In this document: piece by piece, positions 36,670-40,187 of the stretch
Layout of the letters: every line of letters starts with the position of its first letter
How positions within the stretch are numbered: position 1 is the first letter of the stretch
Assembly (NCBI RefSeq): GCF_900156505.1
Contig: NZ_FTPR01000001.1
Location: forward strand, 372,001 to 436,000
Source of the DNA: Yoonia rosea
GTDB taxonomy: Bacteria > Pseudomonadota > Alphaproteobacteria > Rhodobacterales > Rhodobacteraceae
Direction: 5' to 3'
Length of the DNA: 64,000 bases
Program-made: the position numbers and the translations under genes
The notes under the pieces: generated by a model
The model's input: the letters and a program-made list of their open reading frames with translations, nothing else
Told to the model about the DNA's origin: nothing
Databases searched by the model: none

Positions 36670-36969
36670 TTAAAGTTCCACTTGCTTGCCGTGGGCGTAG
36701 TTTGAAGGACCGCGTGTGCGGAATTCTTCGCGGAAATGGGTCGGCGCAGGGCCGTCGTCGGTGGCTTTGGCATCGGCCAGATAGGCCCCCGCGATTTCAT
36801 CCCTGCGCGCTTGCGCCTCAAGCAGGCGCAGATCGGCGTGGGCTTCATCGGTCAGCAGCTCGGCTTTGCGGATGTCGCGGGTCCATGTGTCGTCCTCTGC
36901 CAACCAGACTGCATCGCCGTCCAGCAGGGCGTTGGCGGTGACCACTTTGGGGGTGAAACTACGGGCCAT
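36670..36969 (-). CDS. DUF2849-family protein
   Basis: A 99-residue protein between cysG and cysI, spaced two bases from cysI and touching cysG by one base. The start MARSFTPKVVTANALLDGDAVWLAEDDTW is typical of DUF2849, which is restricted to this operon in alphaproteobacteria. Its function is not established. The tight coupling suggests a helper of siroheme or sulfite reductase assembly, which is inference. Confidence 0.87.
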   Translation of the reverse strand: MARSFTPKVVTANALLDGDAVWLAEDDTWTRDIRKAELLTDEAHADLRLLEAQARRDEIAGAYLADAKATDDGPAPTHFREEFRTRGPSNYAHGKQVEL

Positions 36970-38360
36970 TATGCAAATTCCTTTTGGCTGATCGCTTGTG
37001 CTGCGGCGTCACGGGGGGCAAGGCCGAGAAAGGTGATGGCCGGGCCTTGCAAATTGGCTTGGGTCAGGGTGGGTTCCAACTCGGCCAGCGTCGTTGCGAT
37101 GATCTGTTGATCGGCGCGGCTGACGTTTTCGATGATTGTCACAGGCGTTGCGGGATCGGCGCCATGCATGAGCAAACGGCCCTGGATAAAGCGGGCTGAT
37201 TTCTTGCCCATATAGATCGCGGCCACTTCACCGGGGGCAGCCAGCGCCCGCCAGTCGTGATCGGCATAGCCTTTGGTGTCATGCCCTGTGATCAGGCGCA
37301 CCGCCGAATTACGCCCGCGTTTTGTCAGGCTTTGTCCGATGTTGGCAACAGCGGCAGATGCGGCTGTGATGCCCGGGATGATGGTGTAGGGAATGTCATG
37401 CGCCTCGATTGCGGCAATTTCTTCGTCCAAACGGCCAAAGACCGTGGGATCACCTGCCTTAAGCCGCACAACATGATGGCCGTCCAGCGCATGCTGTACG
37501 ATCAGCGCGTCGATATCGGACTGTGCCATCGCGCGGCCAAAGCCTTCTTTGCCTGCGTCGATGATAATCGCTTCGCGGCGGGCAAGTTCCAGAATCTCGG
37601 GCGTTACCAACCGGTCGTGAATAACCACATCGGCCTTATCCAGCGCATTGCGGGCCTTCAGCGTCAGAAGTTCCGGATCACCGGGGCCCGCACCAACAAG
37701 GTCAACAGAACCGGATTTCCGCTCTTGCATGATGTGGCTATCCAGAAGGCTTTCCAGTGCGGGCACAACCGCCTGTTCGCCCGCATCAGCCAGCGCCTTG
37801 GGGCCTGTCCCAAAGTAAAAGGCCGACCAGAAATCACGGCGCTTGCGGCCCATCGGCAGCACATCAACCGCATGGCGGAAGGTTTTTCCGATCCGCGCAA
37901 GGACACCTAGCGATGTGGGTAGCCGTGCTTCCAGATCGGCTTTGATTGCGCGCGCCAGAACAGGGGCGGCACCCTCTGTCCCGATCGCGATTGTCACCGG
38001 ATCACGGTCAACAATCGCGGGCGTGATAAACTGGCTGTCGGCAAGATTATCGACGATATTGACCAAAGCCCCCTCTGCAAGGGCAATCGTGGCCACGCGG
38101 GCGTCTTCGGCGTCATCCTCGTTGGCGCCATAGAACAGCGCAGCGCAGAGCGCGTCACCCGGTTCCATCGCGCGTTCAATGATCCGCAACTTGCCCTGAT
38201 CGGCCCATTTGCGGATATCGGGTGCGATCTCTGCAGCGATCACGGTCAGATGCGCTTCGGTCTTCATCAGCAAGCGCAGCTTGGCCATGGCGGCATCACC
38301 ACCGCCCGACAAAACGATGCGGCGGCCCTCTACGGCAAGGAAGATTGGAAAGTGCTTCAT
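36969..38360 (-). CDS. cysG: Siroheme synthase CysG (bifunctional)
   Basis: Makes siroheme from uroporphyrinogen III. It is 463 residues from the ATG at 38360. The N-terminal half is the precorrin-2 dehydrogenase/ferrochelatase (FPIFLAVEGRRIVLSGGGDAA). The C-terminal half is the SAM uroporphyrinogen methyltransferase (VDLVGAGPGDPELLTLKA near residue 218, then VRLKAGDPTVFGR and VVPGITAASA-like IPGITAASAAVAN). It leads the sulfite-reduction operon and supplies the cofactor for CysI. A GAACAnTGTTC palindrome sits on its promoter. Confidence 0.96.
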   Translation of the reverse strand: MKHFPIFLAVEGRRIVLSGGGDAAMAKLRLLMKTEAHLTVIAAEIAPDIRKWADQGKLRIIERAMEPGDALCAALFYGANEDDAEDARVATIALAEGALVNIVDNLADSQFITPAIVDRDPVTIAIGTEGAAPVLARAIKADLEARLPTSLGVLARIGKTFRHAVDVLPMGRKRRDFWSAFYFGTGPKALADAGEQAVVPALESLLDSHIMQERKSGSVDLVGAGPGDPELLTLKARNALDKADVVIHDRLVTPEILELARREAIIIDAGKEGFGRAMAQSDIDALIVQHALDGHHVVRLKAGDPTVFGRLDEEIAAIEAHDIPYTIIPGITAASAAVANIGQSLTKRGRNSAVRLITGHDTKGYADHDWRALAAPGEVAAIYMGKKSARFIQGRLLMHGADPATPVTIIENVSRADQQIIATTLAELEPTLTQANLQGPAITFLGLAPRDAAAQAISQKEFA

Positions 38361-38385: not shown

Positions 38386-38402
38386 AATATAGAACATTGT
38401 TC
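38386..38402 (-). promoter_or_regulatory. cysG promoter element with Lrp-type palindrome (site 1)
   Basis: AGAACA-T-TGTTCT at 38391-38403 is a perfect palindrome. On the minus strand it is followed directly by TATATT (complement of 38386-38391), a good -10 candidate about 25 bases before the cysG start. The palindrome therefore fills the spacer of the presumed cysG promoter. The same core recurs at 38961 and 39014. Confidence 0.6.
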
Positions 38403-38495
38403 TGCTATTTGCCTCCCCACGCTGCTAGTTAAGGACATACGTTCTGCCATGCTGTGAATTTGGACTGCCTGTCCTGTGTTTAGGAGAATTTGAGA

Positions 38496-38957
38496 ATGTC
38501 AGTACGCATTGACGCCACAGACAAGAAGATTTTAGCGGCGCTTCAGGCGGATGCGGCGCAATCTCTGGACGATATTGCCAAGGCTGTGGGGTCTTCCAAG
38601 ACACCTGTGTGGAATCGCATTCGCAAATTGCGCGAAGCAGGGGTGATCGGCCAGCACACGGTTTTGCTCGATGCTGAGGCACTGGGATTCGAGGCTTGTT
38701 TCTTCGTCTTGATCCGCACCTCCGAGCATGACGCAGACTGGCAGGGGCGGTTTCTCAAGGCGCTCAAGTCACGGCCTGAGGTGCAAGAGGCGCACCGTCT
38801 AGCCGGTGATATTGACTATATTTTAAAGGTGCGCGTGCGCAATGCGCGGGCTTATGACACGTTTTATCAAGCCCTGATTTCCGAGGTCAAAGTCCATAAT
38901 GTGACCGCACTTTTGTCGATGGAAGAGATCAAATCGACCGTGGCCCTGCCGCTTTAA
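38496..38957 (+). CDS. Lrp/AsnC-family transcriptional regulator
   Basis: A 153-residue regulator with an N-terminal winged helix (RIDATDKKILAALQADA, then SSKTPVWNRIRKLREAGVI as recognition helix) and a C-terminal RAM ligand domain (residues 70-150, including AHRLAGDIDYILKVRVRN). TAGGAGAA precedes the ATG at 38496. It is divergent from the cysG operon, and the palindromes around it are its likely operators. Control of sulfur assimilation in response to an amino acid such as cysteine is a reasonable but untested guess. Confidence 0.92.
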   Translation: MSVRIDATDKKILAALQADAAQSLDDIAKAVGSSKTPVWNRIRKLREAGVIGQHTVLLDAEALGFEACFFVLIRTSEHDADWQGRFLKALKSRPEVQEAHRLAGDIDYILKVRVRNARAYDTFYQALISEVKVHNVTALLSMEEIKSTVALPL

Positions 38958-39025
38958 ATTGAACAATGTTCAATAATTGTGTTGACGGCGCCACTCCAGC
39001 TCTCTAGGTATGTGAACAATGTTCA
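38958..39025 (+). promoter_or_regulatory. Promoter flanked by two Lrp-type palindromes (sites 2 and 3)
   Basis: ATTGAACAATGTTCAAT (38958-38974) is a perfect 17-base palindrome, and TGAACAATGTTCA (39013-39025) a perfect 13-base one. Their centres are 53 bases apart, five helical turns. Between them lies TTGACG (38982-38987), then 17 bases, then TAGGTA, a plausible promoter for the lipoprotein gene at 39042. The geometry suits a looped or wrapped Lrp-type complex. Confidence 0.6.
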
Positions 39026-39041
39026 TATTTGGAGAGACACC

Positions 39042-39377
39042 ATGCAAACGATAAAGATCACAGTTGCCCTCGCAACGCTTGCTTTGGCAGCGGCCTGTGC
39101 CGCACCTAGCGCCCAGCATACGGCCCAGTCAGCCAACCACAGCGCGCAAGCCGCCAGCCATGGCGCGGCGGCGGTGGCATCGGGTGCTGCGACTGTTTCT
39201 GCGGTGCCGATCATCGCGACAGGGGCCGCGCTATCCGTAACCGGCGCGGCGATTGAAAGCGTTGGGACCACCTCCGTGGCGGTTGGTAGCGACGTGTTGG
39301 AGGCGGGACTGGGCACCTGCCAGACCACGCAAACGGCAACATGTGTAGCGGCTGATGGCCCGCCGCGGTTGGACTAA
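39042..39377 (+). CDS. Small Ala/Ser-rich lipoprotein
   Basis: A 111-residue protein with a lipoprotein signal peptide (TLALAAACAAPS, Cys near residue 19). An Ala/Ser/His-rich repeat-like stretch follows (QHTAQSANHSAQAASHGAAA), then a long small-residue hydrophobic segment and a C-terminal pair of cysteines. No family is recognised. It is transcribed with the DUF2145 gene nine bases later, from a promoter set between two Lrp-type palindromes. Confidence 0.8.
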   Translation: MQTIKITVALATLALAAACAAPSAQHTAQSANHSAQAASHGAAAVASGAATVSAVPIIATGAALSVTGAAIESVGTTSVAVGSDVLEAGLGTCQTTQTATCVAADGPPRLD

Positions 39378-39386
39378 GGGGAGGTC

Positions 39387-40187
39387 ATGATGAAACGTCT
39401 TTTTTTTATTCTTGTGTTGGCGATAACTGCCTTCACCACGCCGTCCTTCGCAGGCAGCAGTGCAGCCAGTAACCCCGTTCTGCCTGCCGATGAAGTGGCT
39501 GCTTTTGCCAACCGTGTGCAGCGCGATCTCGCGTCGCGTGGTGCCAATGTGGCCATTGTTTCGCGGGTCGGGCGTGATCCGTCCGTCCTGCCGGACGGGA
39601 TCAACTATACCCATGTCGCCTTTTGGGTTTATGCGCGGATCACCCGCGCTGACGGCTCAACAGGGCAGGGGTACCGTGTTTATAACCTGTACCAGCGCGA
39701 CGGTGATTTGACCCAGAGCGACCTTGTTCAGGATACGCCGGCCGATTTCTTTGCTGGTGCGCATAGTCTTGATGCCGGCGTGATCATCCCTGATCCGCGC
39801 CTGCAGCGCAAACTGCTGTCCGTGATTGCCAGCCCGACCTATGCCGCCCTGCACAATGCCAATTATTCGGTGCTGGCCAATCCGCACACATCGCAATTTC
39901 AGAACTGCACCGAGCATACGTTGGATGTGGTGATGGCAGCCCTTTACGACACGGATGATCGCGCCCAAATCAAAGCCAATATCGCGGCCTATTTTGCACC
40001 ACAGCCCGTGCCGATCAACGGATTGCAACGTCTTCTGGCCCCCGCTGCGTCACAGGCGCTGACCACGGTCGATCATGGTGCGCAGGTCGGTACGGCGACC
40101 TTCGGATCTATCGCGCGGTTCATGGGCGATAATGACCTTGCAGAAGAGATTTACCGGATCACGCCCACGGCGTTGACGCGGTTCTGA
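39387..40187 (+). CDS. DUF2145-family secreted protein
   Basis: A 266-residue protein with a signal peptide (LFFILVLAITAFTTPSFAGS). The mature part contains GQGYRVYNLYQ, the invariant-looking FQNCTEHTLDVVMAALY near residue 170, and LPDGINYTHVAFWVY. This matches DUF2145; the Asn-Cys-Thr-Glu-His region could be a cysteine-protease-like active site, but I know of no proof. It forms an operon with the preceding lipoprotein. Confidence 0.8.
   Translation: MMKRLFFILVLAITAFTTPSFAGSSAASNPVLPADEVAAFANRVQRDLASRGANVAIVSRVGRDPSVLPDGINYTHVAFWVYARITRADGSTGQGYRVYNLYQRDGDLTQSDLVQDTPADFFAGAHSLDAGVIIPDPRLQRKLLSVIASPTYAALHNANYSVLANPHTSQFQNCTEHTLDVVMAALYDTDDRAQIKANIAAYFAPQPVPINGLQRLLAPAASQALTTVDHGAQVGTATFGSIARFMGDNDLAEEIYRITPTALTRF

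Follow-up and report, generated by a model that had tools for sequence, protein, structure and literature searches.

The three look-alike palindromes that surround an Lrp/AsnC gene in the window analyzed here (the whole 64-kb stretch of Yoonia rosea DNA) appear, from sequence comparison, to be two kinds of site for two regulators. They very probably mark two side-by-side circuits, one in which Lrp would act on cysG and another in which an autoregulated TetR-family protein would govern a PspA-centered envelope-stress regulon that includes a lipoprotein-DUF2145 operon. A first-pass annotation of this DNA had assigned both sulfite reduction and the secreted lipoprotein-DUF2145 pair to a single Lrp-type regulator. 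That assignment is supported at cysG, where the site has the form of an Lrp-family box, but not at the lipoprotein-DUF2145 operon, where the sites match a putative TetR operator rather than an Lrp site, so that the predicted link between sulfur and the secreted pair falls away.

The palindromes lie where the annotation had placed them and share the core GAACAnTGTTC, which occurs in the window at 38392-38402, 38961-38971 and 39014-39024; shuffled windows hold 0.03 on average, and none of 100 reached three. At full length they read AGAACATTGTTCT (38391-38403), ATTGAACAATGTTCAAT (38958-38974) and TGAACAATGTTCA (39013-39025). The bases flanking the common core differ, being A..T at the cysG site and T..A at both lipoprotein-DUF2145 sites, which argues for two motifs rather than one. 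Furthermore, 30 of the 48 genomes of the genus (the Y. rosea genome counted in) have GAATA, not GAACA, in the left half of the site at cysG, and the identity of the 11-base core in Y. rosea is therefore partly coincidental. Across the 3.51-Mb genome the core was found at eight places, compared to none for the reversed control and about three expected by chance under a dinucleotide model: the three in the window, two before pspA, one before a gene between murC and murB, and two inside ORFs. Matches L011 and L012, inside large ORFs and without the outer T..A, were set aside.

The cysG-lrp region and its Lrp-type box

The siroheme synthase gene cysG (36969-38360, minus strand; NCBIfam siroheme synthase CysG, E = 4.1e-156), first gene of a sulfite-reduction operon, diverges from the gene encoding the Lrp/AsnC-family regulator (38496-38957, plus strand; Pfam AsnC_trans_reg and HTH_AsnC-type). 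The Lrp-type box between them, TAGAACATTGTTCTG (38390-38404), agrees at 13 of 15 positions with YAGHAWATTWTDCTR, which the consulted part of one study gives as the E. coli Lrp consensus, together with a second Lrp/AsnC form, AGAATwwwATTCT (PMC5554404). The box overlaps the presumed cysG -10 element TATATT (38386-38391, minus strand), read from the sequence and located in a highly conserved block. The palindrome that the annotation had placed over this element thus fits an Lrp-family box and is kept with the divergent cysG-lrp pair.

To score the box, the best match to the E. coli consensus in the 150 bp upstream of lrp was compared with letter shuffles. In 46 of the 48 genus genomes, including all 11 without TetR, the best match falls between -105 and -107 of lrp; in the two exceptions (G009 and G020) a box with one extra base was read by eye. 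Scores reach 15/15 in G033 and G034, and their mean is 13.2, against 10.9 in the shuffles. No more than 5 of 100 shuffles attained the observed score in 39 genomes (2/100 in Y. rosea), and more than 5 did so in the other nine (71/100 in G016). Beyond the genus, in 25 genomes chosen for their TetR, the best match lies at -105 or -106 in 22, with scores of 11-14. Within the genus the site occupies the same place in the divergent intergenic region and varies mainly at inner bases; a match to the consensus coincides with a fixed place beside the regulator gene. The site fits the consensus of known Lrp/AsnC boxes and differs from them in being one strong site beside cysG. The conserved best match and the scores above shuffles leave the Lrp-cysG idea standing, and action of Lrp at the cysG site can be inferred from these alignments with good reason.

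A genome-wide search for a wider Lrp regulon with AGAAYANNRTTCT returned two forward and five reverse matches, hardly above the one and two of the control. Two more conserved blocks, TTAAGGACATAyGTTC and a GGACnGyCTGTCC-like stretch, were observed between the box and lrp (window positions 38428-38490) and are possibly further regulator sites.

Putative TetR-type operators at the DUF2145 and tetR-pspA loci

The lipoprotein-DUF2145 operon has a promoter, TTGACG-17-TAGGTA (38982-39010, plus strand), that was read from the sequence; a plain sigma-70 consensus scan did not score it (0 found). As the annotation had described, its -35/-10 pair is flanked by the other two palindromes, spaced 53 bp apart. 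Both contain exact instances of TGAACnnnGTTCA, the putative TetR-type operator. Operator 1 (38960-38972), one of eight exact sites in the genome and kept before DUF2145 operons, is separated from the -35 by 9 bases, and 2 bases separate the -10 from operator 2 (39013-39025). At least one exact TGAACnnnGTTCA site precedes the operon in all 30 genomes that carry it. Two exact sites are present in 19 of these, spaced 47-49 or 53-54 bp apart, while seven others have a second site changed by one base and four show one site. Alignment of the 30 DUF2145 promoters revealed conservation of the operator arms and of TTGAC, with most other positions diverged, and TTGAC lies at most 22 bp past operator 1 in 27 of them.

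The operon encodes a small lipoprotein (39042-39377, plus strand), identified as an ORF with a LAAAC lipobox read by eye and without a Pfam or NCBIfam match, and a DUF2145 protein (39387-40187, plus strand; PF09916, Pfam E = 3.7e-49) with a signal-like start, also judged by eye. A survey of papain-like folds, in the part consulted, lists PF09916 among papain-like families in which serine replaces the catalytic cysteine and treats their activity as speculative (PMC10318531). The motif NCTEH (residues 173-177) and H76 are more than 97% conserved across 30 aligned DUF2145 orthologs, and might form a permuted papain-like active site with a cysteine, as opposed to the serine of that survey.

The eight exact TGAACnnnGTTCA sites in the genome (0 in the reversed control; about three expected per genome under the dinucleotide model) lie before five genes: one before tetR, two before pspA, two before the lipoprotein-DUF2145 operon, two before a small membrane protein gene located between murC and murB, and one before a gene for a predicted membrane protein of 400 residues. 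These eight do not include the cysG site, AGAACATTGTTCT. The tetR gene is located 1.39 Mb along the contig, and its own operator, TGAACTGCGTTCA, starts 29 bp before the ATG. The adjoining pspA gene, which follows tetR, is preceded by two operators 57 bp apart. Before the murC-murB small membrane gene, the second site, TGAACATCGTTCA, lies 29 bp beyond the GAACAnTGTTC match. One-mismatch hits inside an ORF (L019) and overlapping an ORF start (L020) were set aside.

The proposed regulator has a TetR_N helix-turn-helix domain (PF00440, 28.3 bits against a cut-off of 24), and among named records Loktanella sp. PT4BL has its closest relative (97%), with other Loktanella/Yoonia-type records next. Its neighbor is a PspA/IM30 protein (PF04012, E = 5.7e-20). 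After pspA comes a gene for a 92-residue protein (L010:3537-3812) with a weak likeness to YiaAB, below the Pfam cut-off, and then genes for an acyltransferase and a CTP_transf_1-family protein.

Candidate regulon members were also observed in relatives, where the counts cover the fetched part of the listed places. A murB-upstream operator pair was found in 12 genus genomes, 10 of them with a murC match on the opposite side; the small membrane ORF lies behind the pair in 11 of the 12 and was not recovered in G019 (L101). A site before the 400-residue membrane protein was found in six genus genomes. This protein has no Pfam match, and the name "DUF2157-like", tried for it, was dropped for that reason. 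Two further families, of 399 and 489 residues, have sites in three and four genomes, respectively; their starts are signal-like by eye, and neither matches Pfam. Loci L092 and L172 fit none of these four families. In G032, L172 holds an exact operator pair (L172:1264-1324) 48 bp apart before a 354-residue protein with a signal-like start, possibly a lineage-specific regulon member. Just upstream of the murB-side operator pair, G016 has another small membrane ORF, which carries its own TGAACAGCGTTCA (L106:1166-1178). Outside the genus, 12 of the 25 genomes were searched with TGAACnnnGTTCA, which gave 79 sites in total versus 14 in the reversed control. Among 18 loci fetched from other-genus genomes, eight match tetR/pspA or the 400- or 399-residue protein, and 10 match no query protein.

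Co-occurrence of regulator and operator

Across the 48 genus genomes, an Lrp ortholog is present in all and a TetR ortholog in 37, the other 11 having no match or weak matches (best 3.7e-7). PspA orthologs occur in the same 37 genomes as TetR; in G009 a run of N splits the protein in two, and in G025 (L168:1694-1840) it matches to about residue 47, after which the frame breaks, with no N and with the operators intact. DUF2145 orthologs occur in 30 genomes, all of them among those with TetR (30/37 vs 0/11). Exact TGAACAnTGTTCA follows the same division, being found in 32 of the 37 TetR genomes and in none of the 11 without TetR (Fisher P = 1.9e-7, ancestry ignored). The five TetR genomes that lack it (G009, G022, G025, G030 and G038) carry TGAACnnnGTTCA variants with another center. 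Outside the tetR-pspA and DUF2145 loci, TGAACAnTGTTCA is present in at least 21 of 37 genomes versus 0 of 11 (Fisher P = 0.001, ancestry ignored). Its absence from the TetR-minus genomes, one of which (G001) is 83% complete, is a genome-level count, since the murC-murB and 400-residue genes were not located there. A quick tree built from the DNA of cysG and lrp has at least seven changes in TetR presence. In four supported independent pairs differing in TetR, too few for significance (median P = 0.125), the motif follows TetR in an average of 3.7 pairs and runs opposite to it in none.

At the tetR-pspA locus, the tetR operator is present in 36 of the 37 genomes and starts at -24 to -34 in 35; in G016 it lies upstream of a partial-gene match, and G021 is the genome without it. 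The pspA operator pair, spaced 56-59 bp, is found in 36 of 37, both sites being exact in 35 and one end base being changed in G027, and a run of N occupies this place in the remaining genome (G009). We also compared 80 TetR loci from named records, partly overlapping with the 48 genomes and extending down to 48% TetR identity, among them Octadecabacter, Litoreibacter, Roseovarius, Tateyamaria and Planktomarina. The tetR-side operator is present in 74 of these, and on the pspA side, taken as within 250 bp, at least one exact site is found in 77 and two or more in 73. The palindromic operator at the tetR promoter is the same as that at the targets. A third operator, the sites being about 23 and 34 bp apart (L255-L281 region after tetR), precedes pspA in 21 of the 80 loci, all of them more distant relatives (Litoreibacter, Tateyamaria, Roseovarius and others). 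The annotation had likened the 53-bp spacing to five helical turns, but the pairs before DUF2145 (47-49 or 53-54 bp) and before pspA (56-59 bp), together with the third operator in these 21 loci, led us to reject five-helical-turn cooperativity. Variable spacing points to blocking rather than phased looping.

These comparisons bear on whether the Lrp/AsnC protein binds all three palindromes, coupling sulfite reduction to the lipoprotein-DUF2145 operon. Such an arrangement would suit the 11-base core common to the three sites, all within less than 650 bp around lrp, and the fact that 18 of 30 genomes have lrp no more than 1.5 kb ahead of DUF2145. It is nevertheless extremely improbable, as TGAACAnTGTTCA is missing from all 11 TetR-minus genomes although every one of them has lrp, and as the sites recur at tetR and pspA. 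Moreover, lrp is absent from the 1.5 kb upstream of DUF2145 in the other 12 genomes (ten have it on a different contig, and in G030 and G021 it is about 958 kb and about 1.8 kb off, respectively), and the operators are still there. Against the E. coli Lrp consensus, the DUF2145 operators reach 11 and 9 of 15, where shuffled upstream regions have a mean best of 10.9 and the cysG site scores 13; the lipoprotein-DUF2145 promoter thus lacks a box that is both above background and present wherever lrp is. The annotation had looked to conservation in relatives to decide the matter, and the sites are indeed conserved, at cysG-lrp in 46 of 48 genomes and at the DUF2145 promoter in 30 of 30, but the latter track TetR and not Lrp. 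The link it had drawn between sulfur assimilation and the secreted pair is accordingly not borne out.

A dual arrangement, with TetR repressing the lipoprotein-DUF2145 operon and Lrp touching it in Y. rosea through converged operator cores, is likewise very unlikely. In its favor, the two cores do not differ in this genome and Lrp proteins accept degenerate sites; against it, relatives maintain the flanking-base difference between the two motifs. Because the tie between TetR and its site is comparative, TGAACnnnGTTCA could also be bound by some other factor that co-occurs with tetR-pspA. We regard this as very improbable, given that tetR itself carries the site in nearly all genus genomes and named loci, and that conservation of the TetR helix-turn-helix residues 46-54 (GAIYNVFGD) exceeds 97% across 117 sequences (partly from overlapping records), which a conserved operator would lead one to expect. 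TetR repressors, furthermore, typically control their own gene beside a conserved target.

Proposed circuits and relation to known systems

The favored reading remains that of two separate circuits. From the site conservation, site positions and TetR co-occurrence observed here, we infer binding and repression, a signal and a role in stress, which would operate as follows. In the first circuit, the Lrp/AsnC protein would bind the TAGAAyAttgTTCTG box over the cysG -10, upstream of its own gene; since the box overlaps the one and precedes the other, Lrp would control cysG with the sulfite-reduction genes behind it and, probably, lrp itself. In the second, the TetR-family repressor encoded beside pspA would bind TGAACnnnGTTCA, repressing its own gene via one operator and using two operators apiece to clamp the promoters of pspA and of the lipoprotein-DUF2145 operon. 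In the DUF2145 case, operator 1 lies immediately before the -35 and operator 2 immediately past the -10, and TetR dimers flanking the -35/-10 pair would shut out RNA polymerase until TetR is released by a signal, perhaps a membrane-derived one. Further targets would be the small membrane protein encoded between the murC and murB genes and the 400-residue predicted membrane protein. The nature of the targets, PspA among them, suggests membrane stress as the signal of the TetR regulon, and TetR control would make the lipoprotein-DUF2145 pair an output of envelope stress instead of a sulfur-regulated one.

The second circuit resembles the PSP response in having a PspA/IM30 protein in the regulon, followed by the small protein weakly like YiaAB, and differs from it in its proposed control by a TetR repressor that has a palindromic operator. 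A PSP survey names PspF, LiaRS and PadR-, GntR- and sigma-type regulators, and "TetR" occurs 0 times in its main text, as far as that text was available (PMC11237479). Partial texts of two further papers, on other Alphaproteobacteria, mention a TetR gene together with pspA. In Zymomonas mobilis, a pspA gene goes up on deletion of the TetR gene ZMO0281, an effect that the authors tie to an RND pump and energy imbalance and ascribe to a side effect of the efflux pump (PMC10998469). In Rhizobium tropici, where TetR is tied to efflux, the locus-tag numbers of a TetR gene (RS28830) and of a pspA induced by acid (RS28825) are neighbors (PMC5936775). Both are leads, and neither partial text describes an operator or a PspA regulon (PMC10998469, PMC5936775). 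The available part of another paper gives a PspA gene and a TetR gene separately (PMC11406972), and one lead was discarded because the "tetr" matches in the text available are chemical words, such as tetrapyrrole (PMC6069883). We found no description of a TetR-run PspA regulon in the open-access literature searched, and an earlier description elsewhere is possible.

With TetR/AcrR repressors, the regulator shares the TetR_N domain; the nearest solved chain, 3cjd_A of PDB entry 3cjd, matches residues 1-193 (E = 2.5e-54), and no paper on this structure was found in the open-access literature searched. It differs from such repressors in its proposed, scattered envelope regulon, where they control one adjacent pump or enzyme. 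Each part is thus of a known kind, and the regulon itself seems undescribed.

On balance, we lean towards a broader view, in which many Rhodobacteraceae would run their PspA response via one TetR instead of PspF/sigma-54, with TetR sensing a membrane-derived molecule directly. Its scattered envelope regulon would comprise pspA, the murC-murB protein, the 400-residue membrane protein and exported proteins, and one genus would have added the lipoprotein-DUF2145 operon. DUF2145 was not found in the 25 other-genus genomes with TetR, using the query that matched in 30 of the 48 genus genomes, and among the genomes searched its recruitment therefore looks limited to this genus.

Together, these results replace a tempting but poorly supported sulfur link with a testable regulon, in which a conserved TetR and its 13-bp operator would link PspA with genes for the cell wall and the envelope in marine Rhodobacteraceae. 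They also suggest a role for the relatives of 3cjd and give context to the uncharacterized DUF2145 protein; if the proposal is true, it would be the first regulatory assignment for both.
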